A stretch of 64,000 nt of DNA from Shewanella colwelliana ATCC 39565 (GTDB lineage: Bacteria; Pseudomonadota; Gammaproteobacteria; Enterobacterales; Shewanellaceae): NCBI RefSeq assembly GCF_000518705.1, contig NZ_JAEC01000014.1:1-64000 (forward strand). The letters run 5' to 3'. The translations under genes were made by a program, and so were the position numbers. How positions within the stretch are numbered: position 1 is the first letter of the stretch; each line of letters begins with the position of its first letter. The notes below the pieces were generated by a model that was not told the DNA's origin, searched no databases, and saw only the letters and a list, made by a program, of their open reading frames with translations. Shown here one piece after another: positions 10,015 through 59,886 of the stretch.

Positions 10015-10476
10015 CTAAACAGTTCGGTTTAGTACCATTAACAATCTATCTTCACCTGCACCAAAATAGTCCTTTTCAAGATTCACCTCTACAAAGCCCA
10101 GCGCCAGGTAGAGGTAACGAGCTGGATTGGTTGGTGCCACGGTCAACTTAATGCTTGCAACAGACGCAGGCACTGTGGCCATAGCATCTAAAATTAAACG
10201 CTTACCCACGCCATTGCCCTGTGCTGACCTTGCCACGGCGACAGACAATAGCCAAGCGCAATCGGCTTGTTCACTTTGCGCAATCAGAATGTATCCAAGT
10301 AGTGAATCTTGCTAATCAACCGCAACCTTTAACCCCGAAGGCCAACAGTCATAACACTGTCGAAAAAAGAAATCCGGATAGCTATGCGCACCGAAGAGTT
10401 GCTGCTCAAGCTGATAAACGGCAAGCAGTTCGCCCTTGTCAATTGGACGAACCGTTATGAATTCTGAACTATTCAC
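10015..10476 (-). pseudogene. GNAT-family acetyltransferase interrupted by an in-frame TAG
   Basis: Read from GTG at 10476, which overlaps the cysQ stop by 8 nt, the frame encodes 153 codons of a GNAT protein. Codon 55 is TAG (10312-10314). The same frame continues afterwards with no shift through QDSLLGYIL, the acetyl-CoA loop VAVARSAQGNGVGKRL and a typical end ALGFVEVNLEKDYF. The open C-terminal part (about 77 codons from a TTG) has the CoA-binding motif but lacks the first strand and helices. It is the last gene of the nudE-cysQ direction. It may be a recent null allele or a base error. Confidence 0.8.
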
Positions 10477-35617: not shown

Positions 35618-36724
35618 CTAACGCTCTAGGATATGGATCAGCTCAGACTTTAAAGCCACCTCGGTTTCCATGCCAGGTGCCAAACCTAATTTTTGTGCCA
35701 AGTGCAGCGGCACCTCCGCATTCAGGTGGTGTTTAACCCCTTTAATACTGGCCACGATTCGCATCGTTTCTCCCATCGCCAATGTCGATGCGATCGTAAT
35801 GTTCAACTTGTTGAAACTACGACACAGCCTCCCCTTGGTAATAGAATTAAAACGGATCCCTTGATTGGGTATCACCCAGCGGACCTTAGTGCCAACATCA
35901 AGACTGTCGAAGTATGTGCTCGCAATCAGATGTTCACCAAATTTAAGCCAAGTGATTTGACGATCTTCTTCTTGCGCCACGACATGAGCATCAAACATAT
36001 TACGCAGGCCCATCTGCTTAGCAACGGCTTCATTACGAGGCCGGGTCAGTACCTCTCGCGGCGTCCCCTGCTGCAGCAGTTTACCTTGGCTAATTAAGAT
36101 CATGCGGTCGGCAAGTAGCAGCGCCTCATTGAGATCGTGAGTCACCATAATCACCGGAATGGATAACTGCTCTTTCAATCGAGCTAGCTCAAGATAGAGA
36201 CGCTCCCGCGTTTCTCTATCGACAGCCGAAAACGGTTCATCCAGTAACAAAATAGAGGGCTCTCTTGCCAACGCCCGTGCTAATGCAACACGCTGACGTT
36301 GACCACCAGACAAGTTTGCAGGAAGCCTATCTGGCAAACCATGAAGATTGACCCTTTCGAGCCAATCCTTCGCCCGAGATTGCCGTTGCGATTTAGGAAT
36401 ATGGTCCAATGCCGCCACGACATTTTCCAGTGCCGTCATATTGGGGAAAAGCCCAAAATGCTGCGGAACATAGCCTAAATGACGCTGCTGCGGGCTTAAA
36501 TATTGATGAGTTTCACTATTAAACCACTGACAATCTCCATGACGGATCTCACCACGTTCAGGTTTAGTCAGGCCTGCGATCATCCGCAGCAAGGTCGATT
36601 TGCCACCACCCGATGGCCCCACTACCGCCAACACCTCACCTGCCGAGCAGCAAAACTCGGCATCGATGGGGATGTCGCGCTGTTGGTCAATTTTACAATA
36701 GAGATCAGCGACGTCTTGAGACAT
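35618..36724 (-). CDS. modC: Molybdate ABC transporter ATPase
   Basis: ModC powers molybdate import. The 368-residue protein has Walker A GPSGGGKST, signature LSGGQRQRVALARALA, Walker B ILLLDEPFSA and the switch His in MVTHD. The C-terminal region carries the Mop-like regulatory domain (MRIVASIKGVKHHLNAEVPL). It overlaps the modB frame by 20 nt. It is intact, but the permease gene before it is interrupted. Confidence 0.94.
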   Translation of the reverse strand: MSQDVADLYCKIDQQRDIPIDAEFCCSAGEVLAVVGPSGGGKSTLLRMIAGLTKPERGEIRHGDCQWFNSETHQYLSPQQRHLGYVPQHFGLFPNMTALENVVAALDHIPKSQRQSRAKDWLERVNLHGLPDRLPANLSGGQRQRVALARALAREPSILLLDEPFSAVDRETRERLYLELARLKEQLSIPVIMVTHDLNEALLLADRMILISQGKLLQQGTPREVLTRPRNEAVAKQMGLRNMFDAHVVAQEEDRQITWLKFGEHLIASTYFDSLDVGTKVRWVIPNQGIRFNSITKGRLCRSFNKLNITIASTLAMGETMRIVASIKGVKHHLNAEVPLHLAQKLGLAPGMETEVALKSELIHILER

Positions 36725-37385
36725 TCATGCCTCCTAATCGACGAGACAAGCTGGTCGTGAGTGCCAATGCGGTAATAGCAAAGAGCAGCAACACCAAAGA
36801 CATCTGCCCAGCACTAGCAAAATCAAAGGCCTGCACACTATCATATATAGAAATAGCGATGGTTTTAGTTTCTCCGGCAATATTGCCGCCCATCATCAAT
36901 ACAACGCCAAACTCCCCCAATACATGTGAAAAGCACAGCACTAACGCAGTCAATACGCCGGGCCATACCATGGGCAGTTCAATCCGAAATAGTACCTTAA
37001 GCGGACTCATGCCGCAGCAGGCTCCCGCATCACGCACCTCCTCGGGAACGGCTTCAAACGCGCGTTGAATAGGTTGTATGGCGAAGGGGATATTGACCAG
37101 AATTGACGCAACCACTAGGCCTGAAAAATGAAAAACTAACTGTTGGCCGAGCAGGTTTTCGAGCAACTGCCCCAACCAAGACTGACTGCCAAGCCCCACC
37201 AGCAAGTAGTAACCAATCACAGTGGGTGGCAACACCAAGGGCACCATAATAAGCGCCTCAACCCATGATTTACCACGAAATTGCCGATAGGCAAGAAACC
37301 GTCCCACAACGATGGCAAAAGGGATCAAAATGACTACAGTGACACAGCTCAGTTTTACCGATAAGCCTAATGCCTACCAATCCAT
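36705..37385 (-). pseudogene. modB: Molybdate ABC permease modB with TAG at codon 4
   Basis: The gene should start at ATG 37385, three bases from the modA stop, with MDW and then TAG (37374-37376) where relatives have Gln in WQAL. The same frame continues unbroken as ALGLSVKLSCVTVVILIPFA through all expected helices to a normal end (226 codons). The permease EAA loop EVRDAGACCG and following text are intact. A TTG at 37328 could restart translation but would lose about 19 residues and most of the first helix. So the transporter is probably lost, unless read-through or a restart works. Confidence 0.82.
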
Positions 37386-37388
37386 CGA

Positions 37389-38180
37389 CTACTCTCCTGC
37401 AGCTAGGTGAGGTGGCAAACCAAAACCAAATTCGGTAAATATCTGCCGCGCTTTTTCTTGCTGTAAATAGTCATAAAAACACACAGCGGTATCGCCCGCT
37501 TTATCGGTGAGGACCATGCGTTGATTGATGGGAGTGTGTAGTTCACTCGGTAAGGCTACATAGTGAGCAATCGCCTTAAATTGCGGTGCCATTGCCAAAG
37601 ACAGTGCCACAATGCCGCCTTGGGTAGAGCCACTTAACGCAAATTGAGCAGCTTGAGAGACGTTTTCACCATAGATTAGTTGTGGTTCGATCTGAGTCCA
37701 TAGCCCAAGCTTTTGTAATAACTCTTTGGCTCGCTCTCCATAGGGAGCATGATCAGGATTAGCAATTGCAAACCGCTTTAAGTTGCCCTGCACCATTAAT
37801 GCATTTAACCCTACAAGGTTTTCATCTAACGTTAGCGGCGACGTTTTCGGGGCGGCTAATGCCAAACGCCCAATGGCGTATAAGGTACCATCACTGGTGG
37901 TAACCCCCAACTTATGCAGCTGATAAATATATTTTTCGTCAGCAGAGAGAAATAATTCAAACGGTGCGCCATGACGTATTTGCGCCACAAAATTACCCGA
38001 TGACCCATAAGAGATCCGCACTTTAAGGCCGGTATCTTGGGTAAATTGCTGCGCGACTTTATCCAATGCAAACTTAATGTTCGACGCCGCCGCAATAGAG
38101 GGGGCTTCGCTAGCCCATGACGACACGCATAAGCCCAAAAAGATGGCACACCCTAGTACAACAGCTCTTATCCCATGCAT
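37389..38180 (-). CDS. modA: Molybdate-binding periplasmic protein
   Basis: ModA captures molybdate or tungstate and hands it to ModB. The 263-residue protein has a signal peptide (cleavage near SSWA-SE) and family motifs AAASNIKFALD, YGSSGNF and the C-terminal cleft residues. Its start lies 42 nt past the moaE stop, so mod genes probably share the moa transcript. Its stop is TAG, as are several other normal gene ends here. Confidence 0.94.
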   Translation of the reverse strand: MHGIRAVVLGCAIFLGLCVSSWASEAPSIAAASNIKFALDKVAQQFTQDTGLKVRISYGSSGNFVAQIRHGAPFELFLSADEKYIYQLHKLGVTTSDGTLYAIGRLALAAPKTSPLTLDENLVGLNALMVQGNLKRFAIANPDHAPYGERAKELLQKLGLWTQIEPQLIYGENVSQAAQFALSGSTQGGIVALSLAMAPQFKAIAHYVALPSELHTPINQRMVLTDKAGDTAVCFYDYLQQEKARQIFTEFGFGLPPHLAAGE

Positions 38181-38222
38181 GACGAGTCCCTTTTGAAATA
38201 TTTCATCACGCCACCTAAAGCG

Positions 38223-38687
38223 TTATTTTTCCCACATTTTAGCAGCTTGTTCATCGGCGTCTTTGGCCTCGACCCAATTGCTGCCTTTATCACCGGCTTC
38301 CAACTTCCAAAATGGTGCTTTGGTCTTTAAAAAATCGATCAAAAATTCGCAGGCAGCAAAGGCAGCCTTACGATGAGCACTCGTAACCCCGATAAACACA
38401 ATCTGCTCACCCAACGCCATGGTGCCAACACGGTGAATAATCGTGACCTTATTAAGCGGCCAACGCTCACGCGCTTCGACCACAATTTGATGCAACACAG
38501 CTTCGGTCATACCCGGATAATGCTCAAGTGTCAGGTCGGTCACCGCACTACCATCATTAAAGTCGCGTACCTTACCGATAAAGTTCACCACTGCGCCGTC
38601 ACTGTTATCATCGGCAATTCGCGCATACTCATCTGGCACGCTGAAATCTTGAGTTTGTACCACTATATGATCTAAAGACGCACTCAT
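38223..38687 (-). CDS. moaE: Molybdopterin synthase catalytic subunit
   Basis: MoaE with MoaD converts cyclic pyranopterin monophosphate to molybdopterin. The 154-residue protein has family text LEHYPGMTEAV, HRVGTMALGEQIVFIGV and AHRKAAF, with the active-site lysine in KTKAPFWK. GGAGG lies before its ATG, inside the end of moaD. Confidence 0.95.
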   Translation of the reverse strand: MSASLDHIVVQTQDFSVPDEYARIADDNSDGAVVNFIGKVRDFNDGSAVTDLTLEHYPGMTEAVLHQIVVEARERWPLNKVTIIHRVGTMALGEQIVFIGVTSAHRKAAFAACEFLIDFLKTKAPFWKLEAGDKGSNWVEAKDADEQAAKMWEK

Positions 38688-38688
38688 A

Positions 38689-38940
38689 TTAGCCTCCGGT
38701 CACTGGCGGAAAGAACGCCACTTCGTCACCATCTTCAACAGGTGTGTCCCAACTGCTAATGGTTTGATTGACAGCAACTAGCAACTTGTCAGCCGCCAGT
38801 ACCTTACCCCACTTCTCATCTTTAGCAGCTATCTGCGCTCGCAGCCCCTCGGCTGTGCTGGTCGCTTCACTGGCTTCAATCGCTATAGTGCTCTCGCCGA
38901 GAAGCTCTCGAACCTGAGCAAAAAAGAGTACGTTTATCAT
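38689..38940 (-). CDS. moaD: Molybdopterin synthase sulfur carrier subunit
   Basis: MoaD is a ubiquitin-like protein whose C-terminal Gly-Gly is thiocarboxylated to deliver sulfur to MoaE. The 83-residue protein ends in FFPPVTGG, the required tail. Its stop is one base from the moaE start. Confidence 0.94.
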   Translation of the reverse strand: MINVLFFAQVRELLGESTIAIEASEATSTAEGLRAQIAAKDEKWGKVLAADKLLVAVNQTISSWDTPVEDGDEVAFFPPVTGG

Positions 38941-38967
38941 CTATTTCTACCTTTAAACTTGTGCTAT

Positions 38968-39444
38968 TTACGCCTTAAAATGACCCGATTTTCCGCCACG
39001 CTTTTCTAGTAAACGAGTCTGGGAGATCACCATGTCTTTCTGTACCGCTTTACACATATCGTAAATGGTCAGTGCGGCCACCGATGCAGCAGTTAACGCT
39101 TCCATCTCTACGCCTGTTTTGCCAGAGAGCTTACATAAACTGGTAATACGCACGCGACTATGTTCAGGCTGGGCTTCTAGGTCAACTTCAACCTTAGTCA
39201 GCATCAATGGGTGACATAAAGGGATGAGATCTGAGGTCTTCTTGGCGGCTTGAATACCTGCTATACGTGCCGTGGCAAATACATCACCTTTATGATGGCT
39301 ACCGCTCATGATCATCTCAAGTGTCGCTGGTGCCATCTCAATATAAGCTTCGGCACGGGCCTCACGCTCGGTAACCGCTTTTTCGGTGACATCAACCATA
39401 TGGGCATTGCCATCGGCATTAATGTGGGTGAATTCATTACTCAT
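38968..39444 (-). CDS. moaC: Cyclic pyranopterin monophosphate synthase
   Basis: MoaC converts the MoaA product (3',8-cyclo-GTP) to cPMP. The 158-residue protein has [39 protein letters not shown] and the lysines of the active site. The ATG at 39444 overlaps moaB by 8 nt; a TTG just upstream is less likely. It depends on a working MoaA. Confidence 0.95.
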
Positions 39445-39967
39445 CAATTGATACCTTCTTCACATGCATCACAAAGTTACAAGGTCTGTGGGTTGCATCG
39501 AGTTGTTCTTTAATAATGTTGTTCCAACCGGTGCGACATGCCCCCGTTGAACCAGGTAAGCAAAATATTGCCGTCTTGTTGGCAAAGCCTCCCAGTGCAC
39601 GGGACTGCACTGTCGACGTGCCGAGCTCGGTATAGGTGATATGGCGAAACAGTTCGCCAAATCCTTCGATTTCTCGATCAAACAGTGGTTTAACCGACTC
39701 TGGTGTATTGTCCCGCTCAGTGAAACCTGTGCCGCCAGTAGTGATAATGACCTGCACCTCTTTAGAGGCGATCCATTGAGATACGACTGAGCGAATTAAA
39801 TACTTATCATCTTTAATTAATTGTCGCGCTACAAGTTGGTGACCTGCCTCAATCAAGGCATCTTCTAAAAACTGCCCTGAGGTATCTTGGCTAAAATCTC
39901 GAGTATCTGAAAGCGTGAGTACGGCAATATTTAGGGGTTCAAATTTCGAGTTGGTACAGTGACCCAT
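39437..39967 (-). CDS. moaB: MoaB/Mog-type molybdopterin adenylyltransferase-like protein
   Basis: The 176-residue protein belongs to the MogA/MoaB fold that binds molybdopterin, with [15 protein letters not shown] and the C-terminal [18 protein letters not shown] segment. In E. coli MoaB is dispensable; in others it adenylates molybdopterin. I take the ATG at 39967 with GAGAG upstream. A 111-nt gap with a hairpin separates it from moaA. Confidence 0.92.
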
Positions 39968-40035
39968 AATATCTCTCTTGATGATTTTCAAACTGATGGA
40001 TGAATGCGCACCTAAATTGATGCCGTGAGTATACC

Positions 40036-40070
40036 TATGACCTAAGCGATGGTGTTTGCCCTAGGTCATA
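40036..40070. repeat. Nine-bp inverted repeat in the moaA-moaB gap
   Basis: The arms TATGACCTA and TAGGTCATA are perfect complements around a 17-nt loop. No T-run follows on the minus strand, so it is not a plain terminator. It could stabilise the moaA transcript end, pause RNA polymerase or bind a protein. Confidence 0.55.
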
Positions 40071-40078
40071 AAGCTAAG

Positions 40079-41059
40079 TTAACCGCCAATGGAGGCCAAA
40101 TGTTGTGTCACACCGGTCACCCCATCATGAAGATAATGGGTTTCCTTCTTGGCTTGGAGTTGACCATGCAGACGCTCAATTAGCTCAGTACGCTGTGAAT
40201 GACTTTGTAGCAGATCGCGCAAGTCGACACCGTGCTCAGTGAACAGACATAGATGCAATTTACCTTTAGCCGATACTCTCAGGCGATTACAGTTAGCACA
40301 GAAGTTTTTTTCATAAGGCATGATTAACCCAATGCGACCTTGAAAATCACCGTGGCTAAAGTTCTGCGCTGGACCATCGTCAACGGCAGACTAATCGAGT
40401 TGCCAACCGTCTTGGATTAACTGAGACTTAATGTCGGCCCCCGCTAGGTGATGCGCCTTAAAATAGTCACGGCCTAATCCGGTTTCCATCAACTCAATAA
40501 AACGCAGATCGATAGGCGTCTGTTTAATCCAGTGAAGAAAGCGGGGCAAATCTTTATCGTTGAGGCCTTTTAGCAATACCGCATTGATCTTCACGCGCTC
40601 AAAGCCAGCCTCTAGCGCGGCATCAACCCCACGCATCACATCGTCAAACTTGTTTTCACCTGTGATCTGATAGAACATCCGCGGATCAAGGCTATCTACC
40701 GACACATTTATGCGCCTAAGCCCTGCGTCATACCACTCTTGAGCATGCTTAGCTAAGCGATATCCGTTAGTGGTAGTCGCGATAGTGGAAATTTTATCAT
40801 TGTCAGCCACGATACGAATAATATCGCTAAAGTCTTTGCGCAGCGTAGGTTCACCACCTGTGATACGGATTTTTTGCGTACCCACTTCGGCAAAAGCACC
40901 CACTAGATTTTCGATCTCATTAAGATCTAAAAATTTGGGTTTACCATCGGGACGATAGCCGTCGGGGAGGCAGTATGTACATTTGAAGTTACAGACGTCA
41001 GTGACTGACATCCGCAGATAGTGAAATCTTCGACCAAAATTGTCTTGTAATTGAGACAT
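40079..41059 (-). pseudogene. moaA: GTP 3',8-cyclase moaA interrupted by TAG at codon 223
   Basis: MoaA is the radical SAM enzyme that starts molybdopterin synthesis. From ATG 41059 the frame has the first cluster motif C23-x3-C27-x2-C30 (CNFKCTYC). Then comes TAG at 40391-40393, just after DGWQLD, and the same frame continues with the normal [12 protein letters not shown] loop and [11 protein letters not shown]. The second cluster cysteines are C254, C257 and C271. The full length would be 326 codons, as usual. The 222-residue truncated product would lack the GTP-binding second [4Fe-4S] cluster, so it should be inactive. No shift or other lesion is visible. Confidence 0.85.
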
Positions 41060-41178
41060 GATCACCTTTCCAAGTAAGGGGAGGTGAGTCAATTTCTTTT
41101 CTCACCCCGGTGGCACTATTGCCACGGCTAGCTACCCATATCTGTTGACGTAGGATAGAAAGCTCGGAGAACCGTCGT
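41060..41178 (-). ncRNA. Candidate molybdenum cofactor (Moco) riboswitch-type leader of moaA
   Basis: The 119-nt leader between the promoter and moaA folds into clear hairpins. GTGGCA/TGCCAC encloses ATAG (41110-41125). GGGGTGAG pairs with CTCACCTCCCC around 12 nt (41078-41108). The CTCACC arm can instead pair with the ribosome-binding GGTGA (41062-41066), giving a sequestered and an open form. Moco riboswitches are known before moaA in gammaproteobacteria. I cannot match the family consensus base by base, so this is an inference from position and folding. Confidence 0.52.
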
Positions 41179-41184
41179 TTCACA

Positions 41185-41212
41185 ATTATAGGCCTAAATT
41201 TGCATCAGTTAA
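41185..41212 (-). promoter_or_regulatory. Probable moaA promoter
   Basis: On the minus strand -35 TTAACT (41207-41212) and -10 TATAAT (41185-41190) are separated by 16 nt. Transcription would begin near 41178 and give the structured leader. Confidence 0.6.
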
Positions 41213-41262
41213 TACCCCTGTTCACCCTTTTCTTGCACAAGATCAGCTGAGCGTGAACATAT

Positions 41263-41278
41263 TGTGACAGCGCTCACG
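41263..41278. promoter_or_regulatory. Probable CRP site between moaA and ETF-QO
   Basis: TGTGACAGCGCTCACG matches the CRP consensus TGTGA-N6-TCACA at nine of ten fixed bases. It sits 51 bp upstream of the moaA -35 and 131 bp upstream of the ETF-QO ATG, so it could serve either direction. CRP governs anaerobic respiration genes in Shewanella. The remainder of the 41060-41408 gap shows no gene. Confidence 0.6.
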
Positions 41279-41408
41279 CAGATAATTACTATCAATTAGT
41301 CTATCCTGACTGCTTAAACTCTGTGCCATCTCACAAAATTAAGGTAAGGTGGTGAAAAGAATAAAACACCCGTTTCAATCGGGGGATAAGAACAAAAGAG
41401 GTGAAGTG

Positions 41409-43058
41409 ATGGAACGCGAATCGATGGAGTTTGACGTTGTTATCGTTGGGGCTGGTCCTGCAGGCCTGGCAACAGCATGTCGACTGATGCAGATATCTCA
41501 AGACAGTGGTCAAGAACTGTCAGTTTGTGTGGTAGAAAAAGGCTCCGAAGTTGGCGCTCACATTCTATCTGGTGCAGTATTTGAACCTAAAGTACTCGAT
41601 GAGTTATTTAGCGATTGGAAAGACACCGGCGCACCACTGCACACAGCTGTTACCCATGATGAACTGCACATGCTTAACTCACCATCAGCAGCCCGTGCGA
41701 TGCCTAACGCCCTTATCCCAAAGACGATGCACAATGACGGCAATTATATTATTAGTGTCGGCAACCTCGCCCGCTGGTTAGCCGAACGCGCCGAAGCCTT
41801 GGGCGTTGAAATTTTCCCGGGGTTTCCTGCCAGCGAACTGCTTTTTAACGATGACAACAGTGTTAAAGGTATTTTAATTGGTGACATGGGTGTGGGTGCC
41901 GATGGTCAACCCAAAGACAGTTATGAGCCAGGCATGGAACTCCACGCTAAGTACACGGTATTCAGTGAAGGGTGCCGCGGACATCTAGGCAAACAGCTTA
42001 TCGAAAAATATCACCTTGATAATGGCAAGACACCACAACATTACGGTTTAGGCTTTAAAGAGATATGGAAAGTCCCTAGTGAGCAACACCAACAGGGCAA
42101 AGTGGTGCACACTGGTGGTTGGCCGCTTACTGAAGGTGCATCAGGCGGCGGTTTCCTTTATCACCTTGAAGACAATCAAGTCGCGGTCGGCCTGATTATC
42201 GACCTTAACTATCAAAATCCACATTTGAGTCCATTTGATGAGTTTCAGCGCTATAAAACTCATCCAGTGATCAGCCAATACCTTAAAGATGGCGAACGTC
42301 TCAGCTACGGCGCACGCGCCATCACCAAAGGTGGACTTAACTCGCTACCCAAAATGAGTTTCCCTGGCGGACTGATTATTGGTTGTGATGCGGGCACACT
42401 CAATTTTGCCAAAATCAAAGGCACTCACACCGCCATGAAGAGCGGCATATTAGCGGCCGAAACCATCTGCCATGCACTGCATGCAGGGGTTGAAGGTGGA
42501 AAAGACCTGGATTGCTATCAAGAAAAGTTTGAACAAAGCTGGCTACAAGAAGAGTTGCATACATCACGCAATTTTGGCCCAGCCATGCACAAATTTGGTG
42601 CCTATTTAGGTGGCGCATTCAATTATATCGACCAAAACTGGTTCGGCGGCAAATTCCCTATCACCCTGCGTGATGAGAAGCATGACTACGCCCAAATGGC
42701 TGAAGTCAGTGCCTACAGCAAAATTGATTACCCCAAACCAGATGGCAAACTCAGCTTTGACAAGCTCTCATCTGTCTATCTCTCCAACACCTTCCATGAA
42801 GAGGATCAGTTGTGTCATCTGCGCCTTAAAGATGAGCGGATCCCTATCGATGTTAATCTAGTCAAGTTTGATGAACCTGCACAGCGTTACTGCCCAGCTG
42901 GGGTTTACGAAATTGTCGAAGAAGCTGGTGAGAAGAAGTTTATGATTAACGGTCAAAACTGTATTCACTGCAAGACTTGTGATATCAAAGATCCCAGTCA
43001 GAACATTACCTGGGTCAGCCCAGAGGGTGGCGGTGGTCCTAACTACCCCAATATGTAA
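41409..43058 (+). CDS. Electron transfer flavoprotein-ubiquinone oxidoreductase
   Basis: ETF-QO moves electrons from ETF (fatty acid and amino acid oxidation) to the quinone pool at the inner membrane. The 549-residue protein has the FAD-binding motif VVIVGAGPAGLATA near the start and GGLIIGCDAGTLNF in the middle. A C-terminal [4Fe-4S] ferredoxin domain has CIHCKTCDIKDP. The ATG at 41409 with GAGGTG upstream is preferred to the frame start at 41349. It is transcribed alone. Confidence 0.95.
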   Translation: MERESMEFDVVIVGAGPAGLATACRLMQISQDSGQELSVCVVEKGSEVGAHILSGAVFEPKVLDELFSDWKDTGAPLHTAVTHDELHMLNSPSAARAMPNALIPKTMHNDGNYIISVGNLARWLAERAEALGVEIFPGFPASELLFNDDNSVKGILIGDMGVGADGQPKDSYEPGMELHAKYTVFSEGCRGHLGKQLIEKYHLDNGKTPQHYGLGFKEIWKVPSEQHQQGKVVHTGGWPLTEGASGGGFLYHLEDNQVAVGLIIDLNYQNPHLSPFDEFQRYKTHPVISQYLKDGERLSYGARAITKGGLNSLPKMSFPGGLIIGCDAGTLNFAKIKGTHTAMKSGILAAETICHALHAGVEGGKDLDCYQEKFEQSWLQEELHTSRNFGPAMHKFGAYLGGAFNYIDQNWFGGKFPITLRDEKHDYAQMAEVSAYSKIDYPKPDGKLSFDKLSSVYLSNTFHEEDQLCHLRLKDERIPIDVNLVKFDEPAQRYCPAGVYEIVEEAGEKKFMINGQNCIHCKTCDIKDPSQNITWVSPEGGGGPNYPNM

Positions 43059-57030: not shown

Positions 57031-59886
57031 TTAGGCTTTAGTGATCTGACAAAGCGAAGCTTTAGTCTCTTGCATCTGCGTCACAGGGTCATAACCGTAA
57101 GTTAAGGCCGTGTTCGCAGACTCACCAATCACATAAGGCACTGTACCTTCTGGATAGTTCTTCTCTAGGCTTTCACCGTGCATCACACCCGCAAAGTGGT
57201 ATGGCATCCAAGTAACACCTGGTTTCACACGTGGAGTCACCATAGCTTGGATCTTAATACGACCACCTTCCGCACCCTCTAGCCATACAGTGTCACCATT
57301 ACGGATACCACGGTCAGCCGCATCAGCAGGGTTAATTTCAACAAACATCTCTTGTTGAAGCTCTGCTAGCCAAGGGTTAGAGCGCGACTCTTCACCACCA
57401 CCCTCATACTCAACCAGACGACCAGAAGTCAGGCCTAGTGGGTACTTAGCTGTGTTGTCATTCTGCTGAATTGACTTGTACAGTGTTGGTAGGCGATGCA
57501 CTTGCATGTCATCATAGGTTGGGTACTTAGATACAAGATCACGACGTGGCGTATAAAGCGGCTCACGATGCACAGGCACTTGATCAGGGAAAGTCCAAAC
57601 AATACAACGTGCTTTAGCGTTACCAAATGGAATACAACCGTGCTTCATTGCCACACGTTGGATACCACCAGAGATATCGGTCTTCCAGTTTTTGCCTTCA
57701 GCCTCTGCTTTCTCAGCGGCCGTTAGCTCGTCCCACCAACCAAGTTGCTTAAGCATGTCAGCGCTGAATTCTGGGTAACCGTCTTGGATTTCAGCACCTT
57801 TAGAGAAGCTACCTTCAGCCAATAGGTTCTTACCTTTGTACTCAACACCATAACGGGCACGGAAGTTACCACCGCCCTCAAGCACGTGCTTGTGTGTGTT
57901 ATACAGGATCTGTGTACCCGGGTGTTTCTGCTCTGGTGTGCCCCAGCATGGCCAAGGTAGACCATAGGTTTCACCTTTCGCAGGACCACCTTCAGCTTCA
58001 AGCGTCTTATTGCTGAAAGTACCCCAGTTTTGGGTGTGTAGCTTCAAACGCTCAGGGCTTTGGCCTGACATACCAATGGTCCACATACCGCGGTTGATTT
58101 CGCGAGTAATGTCTTCAATGACCAACATATCTTTGGCATCTTTGGCGATACGCTTGGTATATTCGTCAGCAAAACCAAGCTTTTGAGAAAGACGATACAT
58201 GATCTCAAGGTCAGTCTTAGATTCAAATAATGGCTCGATAACCTTCTCACGCCACTGCTGGCTACGACCAGAGTTAGATACTGAACCTTCAGTTTCGAAC
58301 TGGGTTGCCGCAGGCAATAAATACACACCGTCTTTACGGTTGTGCATAACACCAGCCATAGTTGGGAACGGATCCACAACAACCACAGTGTCCATCTTGT
58401 CTAGTGCTTCACGCACATCACGCTGACGAGTTTCAGTGTTAACTGACTGACCCCAGAAGAACGCCATACGAACGCGATCTTTCTGCGCTAGCTTTTCAGG
58501 TGTCTCAAGTACACCATCGTGCCAACGTGAACACGGAATACCAGGAGTGTTCATCGGTACACGGCCAAGGTAGCTGTTTTGATCAAAGCGGCCTTTAACC
58601 CAATTTAAGTCAAGATCCCACACGTGGCTCCAGTGCGTCCAAGCGCCTGAAGTCAAGCCGTAGTAGCCAGGAAGATTATCAAACAGTAGACCTAAATCCG
58701 TTGCGCCCTGTACGTTATCGTGACCACGGAAAATGTTTGTTCCGCCACCTTTAACGCCCATATTACCCAGAGCAAGCTGCAGGATACAGTAAGCACGTGT
58801 GTTGGCGTTACCAACGTGATGCTGAGTACCACCCATACACCATACAACGGTACCAGGACGATTTTCAGCCATTAACTTCGCCGCTTGGTAAACGTCTTCT
58901 TCGCTCACGCCAGTGATGTCCGCAACCTCTTTAGGTGGGAACTTCTTCACTTCCTCGCGTATAGATTCCATTTCAAATACACGCTGCTCGATAAAGGCTT
59001 TATCTTCCCAGCCATTTTCGAAGATATGCCAAAGCATACCGTAGATGAACGGAATATCAGTACCTGGACGCAGTGCACAGTGGTGATCAGCGTGTGCAGC
59101 AGTACGAGAGAAGCGTGGATCAACAACGATGATCTTAGCGTTGTTTTTCTCTTTCGCGATCAGAATATGCTGCATCGCCACTGGATGCGCTTCAGCTGGG
59201 TTCGCCCCAATGAAGAAGATGGCATTAGCATTTTGAATGTCGTTGAAAGAGTTAGTTTGCGCACCATAGCCCCAAGTGTTTGCAACACCGGCTACCGTGG
59301 TAGAGTGACAAATACGTGCTGAGTGGTCGACGTTGTTAGTGCCCCACATAGCCGCAAATTTACGATACATGTAGCAACCTTCGTTAGAAAACTTAGCGCT
59401 ACCCATAAAGTAAAGTGAATCTGGACCCGACTCTTGACGGATATCTAACATCTTGTCGCCTACTTCGCTAAAAGCTTGCTCCCAAGAAATTTTCTTCCAC
59501 TTACCGCCTTCTAGCTTCATTGGGTATTTTAGACGCTTCTCGCCGTGACCATGTTCACGAAGGGCTGCACCTTTCGCACAGTGACCACCAGCATTAAACG
59601 GATGGTCAAATGCAGGCTCTTGTCCCGTCCAAACACCGTTTTGAACTTCAGCATAAAGGCCACAACCTACCGCACATGCACTACATACGGTGCGCTTGAT
59701 CTCAGTTGGTGCATTATGTGGAATATCTTTGGCTTCGGCGCGACGCATCATGCCTGTACCAAGAAGAGAAGCCGCTGCAATACCACCAGATGTGATACCT
59801 GCATGCTTCATAAATTGACGACGGCTAATCCCAAGTGTTTGCTTAGCAACGACTGGGGCCTCATTTGATTTGCGAGTTAACTTCAT
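57031..59886 (-). CDS. fdhA: Formate dehydrogenase catalytic subunit, operon 1 (Cys form)
   Basis: FdhA oxidises formate to CO2 at a Mo- or W-bisMGD site in the periplasm. The 951-residue protein has a Tat signal (SRRQFMKH) and an N-terminal [4Fe-4S] motif with Cys68, Cys71, Cys75 and Cys103. The active site is RICHSTTV with Cys193 where E. coli FdnG has selenocysteine. No in-frame TGA is present. Molybdopterin contacts include GANPAEAHPVAMQH and GGTQHHVGNANTRAY. It needs Moco, which is odd given the interrupted moaA. Confidence 0.95.
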   Translation of the reverse strand: MKLTRKSNEAPVVAKQTLGISRRQFMKHAGITSGGIAAASLLGTGMMRRAEAKDIPHNAPTEIKRTVCSACAVGCGLYAEVQNGVWTGQEPAFDHPFNAGGHCAKGAALREHGHGEKRLKYPMKLEGGKWKKISWEQAFSEVGDKMLDIRQESGPDSLYFMGSAKFSNEGCYMYRKFAAMWGTNNVDHSARICHSTTVAGVANTWGYGAQTNSFNDIQNANAIFFIGANPAEAHPVAMQHILIAKEKNNAKIIVVDPRFSRTAAHADHHCALRPGTDIPFIYGMLWHIFENGWEDKAFIEQRVFEMESIREEVKKFPPKEVADITGVSEEDVYQAAKLMAENRPGTVVWCMGGTQHHVGNANTRAYCILQLALGNMGVKGGGTNIFRGHDNVQGATDLGLLFDNLPGYYGLTSGAWTHWSHVWDLDLNWVKGRFDQNSYLGRVPMNTPGIPCSRWHDGVLETPEKLAQKDRVRMAFFWGQSVNTETRQRDVREALDKMDTVVVVDPFPTMAGVMHNRKDGVYLLPAATQFETEGSVSNSGRSQQWREKVIEPLFESKTDLEIMYRLSQKLGFADEYTKRIAKDAKDMLVIEDITREINRGMWTIGMSGQSPERLKLHTQNWGTFSNKTLEAEGGPAKGETYGLPWPCWGTPEQKHPGTQILYNTHKHVLEGGGNFRARYGVEYKGKNLLAEGSFSKGAEIQDGYPEFSADMLKQLGWWDELTAAEKAEAEGKNWKTDISGGIQRVAMKHGCIPFGNAKARCIVWTFPDQVPVHREPLYTPRRDLVSKYPTYDDMQVHRLPTLYKSIQQNDNTAKYPLGLTSGRLVEYEGGGEESRSNPWLAELQQEMFVEINPADAADRGIRNGDTVWLEGAEGGRIKIQAMVTPRVKPGVTWMPYHFAGVMHGESLEKNYPEGTVPYVIGESANTALTYGYDPVTQMQETKASLCQITKA

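Follow-up and report, generated by a model that had tools for sequence, protein, structure and literature searches.

The molybdenum cofactor cluster and its features

The window analysed here is a 64,000-nucleotide stretch of Shewanella colwelliana ATCC 39565 (contig NZ_JAEC01000014.1, positions 1 to 64,000; contig C10 below). It carries genes for molybdenum cofactor (Moco) synthesis and molybdate transport in the order riboswitch, moaA1, moaB, moaC, moaD, moaE, modA, modB, modC:

41047..41181, minus strand: Moco riboswitch RF01055 at full length (95 bits), which overlaps the start of moaA1
40079..41059, minus strand: moaA1, gene for GTP 3',8-cyclase with an interrupting TAG; the predicted product has 222 aa where relatives have 326 aa
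40391..40393, minus strand: in-frame TAG, moaA1 codon 223, from minus-strand translation
40079..40321, minus strand: ATG-started open frame past the stop, 80 aa, with C254, C257, C271 and the terminal GG; covers PF06463 positions 65-127 of 128
39437..39967, minus strand: moaB, open along its entire length in comparison with S. mesophila; start picked at ATG
38968..39447, minus strand: moaC, open; sole moaC match in the genome
38689..38940, minus strand: moaD, open, 83 aa; named by position and too short for the gene comparison
38223..38687, minus strand: moaE, open; named by position
37389..38180, minus strand: modA, molybdate-binding protein gene, open
36705..37385, minus strand: modB, molybdate permease gene with TAG at codon 4 (37374-37376)
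35618..36724, minus strand: modC-like ATPase gene, open; 209.4 bits to TIGR02142, below the cut-off of 285.05; named by position

The riboswitch score compares with a gathering score of 36 for RF01055. Control of moa operons by this element is described by Regulski et al. 2008 (PMC2408646). The full aptamer lies directly before moaA here, as it does in loci L006, L007 and L150; the present cluster differs in that the first gene is interrupted. In modB, the first listed in-frame start past the TAG is a TTG at 37328, and none of the 120 proteins listed was a near-identical ModB. The window also holds two genes of the molybdopterin oxidoreductase family (PF00384), at 57031-59886 and from ~62328 to beyond the window end, whose starts lie ~16 and ~21 kb away from moaA1.

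The moaA1 stop removes the second cluster motif

Translation of the minus strand over 40079-41059 yields 222 residues, the TAG at 40391-40393, a further 103 residues and a terminal TAA, and the bases at 38000-43000 are identical in the stored genome assembly. The in-frame TAG at codon 223 described in a sequence-only reading of this DNA is thereby borne out, as is its placement of the cysteines on the two sides of the stop. The N-terminal CxxxCxxC radical-SAM motif (C23, C27, C30) precedes the TAG; the C-terminal CxxCx13C cluster motif (C254, C257, C271) and the terminal GG follow it, leaving the second motif absent from the encoded product. The same reading held that the two halves join without a frameshift, and the frame with the stop read through indeed scores 344.6 bits against the MoaA model TIGR02666 (cut-off 284.05). 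It belongs to the same family as the solved MoaA structures (1tv7/1tv8/2fb3), presumably of S. aureus origin, along its whole length with the stop passed; the two cysteine motifs and the terminal GG are all there, and its 326-residue relative P0001 aligns with these structures over residues 2-304. What sets moaA1 apart from TIGR02666 members is the TAG and a predicted product below the family cut-off, at 256.4 bits. Residue 223 itself varies: ten different residues occur there among 85 relatives, counting P0001.

At the domain level, the 222-residue product matches PF04055 (radical-SAM domain), whereas full-length P0001 matches both PF04055 and PF06463 (MoaA C-terminal domain); a search of the truncated product for PF06463 gave no match. 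What remains is the radical-SAM domain, most of the C-terminal domain having gone together with the second cluster, in line with the earlier expectation that its cysteines would be lost. In MoaA, GTP is bound by this second cluster, according to PMC5352715. Because the PF06463 part is lost and the score falls under the cut-off, we infer that the 222-residue MoaA1 product would be inactive. The moaA1 stop is named in none of the titles and abstract openings covered by a literature search, and the modB TAG in the same cluster and a further TAG in a rimI-like gene (below) are new here.

A second, uninterrupted moaA in the same genome

A second moaA, for which the sequence-only reading had proposed a search, was found in the 4.58 Mb genome (58 contigs). 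This gene, moaA2 (C24:66557-67531), encodes 328 aa and scores 367.7 bits to TIGR02666, over the cut-off, with both cysteine motifs, the terminal GG and no stop. MoaA2 shares just 38% identity with P0002, a first-type MoaA, and is for this reason likely an old paralogue. Located 5' of moaA2 are genes for a Tup-type binding protein, permease and ATPase, followed by mobA and a mobB-moeA fusion. All three transport proteins stay below their NCBIfam cut-offs (TupA 158.9, TupB 177.6 and TupC 100.9 bits against 400, 320 and 400, the TupA score being taken on a gene cut by the edge of the stretch read); tupABC is therefore given as their likely identity only. No Moco riboswitch reaching the gathering score was found in the 7.1 kb surrounding moaA2. 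In 30/30 of the best-scoring Shewanella moaA2 loci fetched, the gene immediately upstream of moaA2 encodes MoeA (12 scored by script, 18 read from printed minus-strand rows).

PF00384 has 12 matches in the genome, none with an internal stop; 11 exceed the Pfam cut-off and ten span nearly the whole domain; as PF00384 also includes relatives that are not Moco enzymes, this number is a family count. The earlier prediction of a failing first step in molybdopterin synthesis does not follow, given a second intact moaA and open molybdopterin oxidoreductase genes in the same genome.

Both moaA types were then surveyed across the genus. The first type was matched in 128/129 Shewanella genomes, and only in this genome did a stop fall inside the match. 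Two genomes, G066 (L146) and G122 (L147), gave a partial first-type match with a frame change, and a search for a second whole moaA showed none in either; for these frame changes, an indel in the assembly would be a likelier cause than a loss. Two moaA matches were counted by hand from the table in 103/129 genomes, the second match in G006, G120 and G122 likely not being a whole moaA2. Internal stops were also scored in 49 Shewanella loci (51 minus the more distant L053 and L054; two of the 49 come from one genome). None was present in moaA (0/49), moaC (0/49), or those copies of moaE (0/48), modB (0/48) and moaB (0/30) that were found. For modA, 90% coverage was reached in 21/48 only, and modC extended past the end of every locus; the survey provides a control for neither.

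Age of the moaA1 stop

P0001 differs from the window MoaA at two positions only, residue 130 and the stop. It is probably conspecific with the window strain. Its contig measures 170386 bases, close to the 170725 bases of C10, and it may thus come from another assembly of a very near, even the same, strain. Since P0001 has a residue at codon 223, the stop looks recent. The frame is likewise open past codon 223 in all 80 relatives from the contig set, 50 of which are named Shewanella. The suggestion of a recent event in the sequence-only reading accordingly stands. As counting against its account, that reading had named the same stop in sister strains together with an intact paralogue: the paralogue exists, and the stop is shared by no relative examined.

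Signs of decay were sought in the rest of the gene. The window MoaA deviates at none of the 188 positions whose conservation across 84 relatives is 97% or higher, a weak test because most intact relatives also show zero deviations (58/86 sequences scored, counting the window itself). In comparisons with eight relatives, synonymous sites were in every case at or close to saturation; dN alone was therefore read, rather than dN/dS. In 8/8 comparisons, dN was greater in the part past the stop than in the part preceding it (0.061 vs 0.034 for L006). Reading this as decay was dropped, since intact relatives show the same trend past codon 223 in 3/3 comparisons among themselves (L006-L007 and L007-L008 clearly, L006-L008 barely). 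Taken together, conserved positions, dN and P0001 give no sign of long decay in moaA1.

Other interrupted genes

A third in-frame stop lies elsewhere in the window; neither it nor the modB stop had been noticed in the sequence-only reading:

10015..10476, minus strand: rimI-like gene with in-frame TAG at 10312-10314; part past the stop 37.6 bits to TIGR01575, cut-off 86.4

Its relative P0241, on a 1191-base ENA contig, is 97% identical over the part searched, full-length, and has a residue at the stop site.

Interruptions were scanned by comparison with S. mesophila in 394 genes (~144,000 codons) on contigs C10, C1 and C2, covering ~0.86 of the 4.58 Mb. Fourteen in-frame stop rows were obtained, of which 3 were kept and 11 dropped by eye as lying at or before a likely gene start or in short spurious frames; two dropped genes, which we take to be parB- and YrfG-like, were inspected more closely. 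The accepted stops (moaA1, modB and the rimI-like gene) are all TAG and all on C10. For S. mesophila, 1 of 5 rows was kept by eye: a presumably FolX-like gene (G058:C1 ~52351) is broken at residue 18 by an in-frame TAG, and its counterpart is open here (C10:75950-76342).

Four frame breaks were also counted in this genome, two of them with the DNA aligned. In a gene that we assume to encode an HNH-endonuclease-like protein (G000:C10 ~139116-139129, L222), there is an 8-base deletion relative to S. mesophila. In a presumed nucleoside hydrolase gene (G000:C10 ~141190, L222), the frame shifts in a run of C, possibly through a slip or an assembly error; this break came from a separate comparison, outside the stop-row filter. 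The other two, at G000:C2 ~334703 and ~70925, are frame changes relative to S. mesophila genes of 574 and 831 aa; for these two, the DNA comparison gave no hit.

Interrupted genes thus number 7/394 here against 1/403 in S. mesophila (Fisher p 0.036, with interruptions judged by eye), an excess that may reflect errors as well as decay. Two of the 7 fall among the seven molybdenum-cluster genes long enough to compare, for which the chance under random breaks is 0.005 in a test devised after the result was seen. A homology-free codon-score scan yielded nothing at its strict setting, moaA included, and was replaced by the S. mesophila comparison; four candidates from looser settings (C1:164319, C10:70347, C10:96768, C1:82077) looked like neighbouring gene pairs when translated.

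Interpretation and alternatives

We propose, with a probability of roughly 0.6, that the TAG would truncate MoaA1 before its GTP-binding second cluster and that the intact moaA2 carries cofactor synthesis. A recent nonsense mutation in moaA1 would have been tolerated as moaA1 is redundant; MoaA2 would make 3',8-cH2GTP for the single MoaC and would suffice for the molybdoenzymes present. The modB stop could be accommodated likewise if molybdate has another way in, for example through the putative Tup-type transporter. Possible substitutes for both interrupted genes are found in the genome, MoaA2 for moaA1 and the Tup-type permease for modB, and moaC, which has no substitute there, is open, as are moaB, moaD and moaE, matching the earlier description of moaB-E as intact. 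This pattern fits relaxed selection on redundant parts. Our preferred reading is that a redundant gene was lost recently, perhaps along with the entire molybdate side. The moaA1 case is likely one of ordinary gene loss, slightly unusual for the second stop in the nearby modB. It resembles a nonsense pseudogene beside an intact paralogue in having one stop in a little-changed gene and a second moaA. It differs in that the interrupted copy is the type matched nearly throughout the genus, while the intact type is missing in about a fifth of the genomes.

The strongest rival to loss of moaA1 is a base error or a culture-acquired mutation, by which the TAG would be confined to the assembly or to a single stock and be absent from the species in nature. 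We consider this somewhat unlikely. It would account for the lack of the stop in relatives and in P0001, which may stem from the same strain or a very close one, for a remainder of moaA1 without clear decay, and for the larger number of interrupted genes than in the S. mesophila assembly, including the nucleoside hydrolase slip. Against it, errors would have to explain two stop-creating substitutions within a single cluster of eight genes plus another in the rimI-like gene, and substitution errors are rarer than indels in most assemblies.

In a bolder version, which we regard as quite doubtful, the strain would have changed over its cofactor supply: with ModB and the riboswitch-controlled MoaA1 silenced by amber codons, all Moco would now originate from MoaA2 and the metal would come in via the Tup-type transporter. 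If this were true, the first step of Moco synthesis would be freed from Moco feedback.

Because stops were found in modB and the rimI-like gene as well, TAG as a sense codon was tested. Read-through, with UAG decoded at some level by a suppressor tRNA or in a leaky context and full-length MoaA1, ModB and RimI made, appears improbable. It could draw on the absence of clear decay past the moaA1 stop and on the identity of the three accepted stops: under a one-step mutation model, the TAG share is ~0.36 and three of three being TAG has a chance of ~0.05. A tRNA with a CTA anticodon was not among the 60 tRNAs located, nor did further scans reveal one; the survey scored 150 of 246 candidates, which leaves this rival some room. 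Standing against read-through, moreover, the RF1 gene is present, open and over its cut-off, TAG terminates 167/717 listed ORFs here and 184/703 in the S. mesophila stretches, and the 259 genes of C1 and C2 contain no accepted TAG interruption. Amber recoding is for these reasons not claimed, and its genome-wide form is further opposed by the small number of such codons, only 3 in 394 genes.

A split enzyme, in which the 222-residue N-terminal part and a C-terminal part started at ATG 40321 assemble as a working MoaA, is very improbable indeed: the 80-aa frame has all three C-terminal cysteines and the GG, but it lacks the first half of PF06463, and no in-frame split of moaA at a stop occurs in the other Shewanella genomes surveyed.

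If recent loss of moaA1 is the correct reading, this strain would be a moaA1 mutant, and perhaps a modB mutant too, arisen in nature within a genus that has many molybdoenzymes, with two stops in one pathway cluster whose moaB, moaC, moaD and moaE are still open. It could show whether the MoeA-linked MoaA2, present in most Shewanella examined, suffices for every Moco enzyme or serves a tungsten branch.
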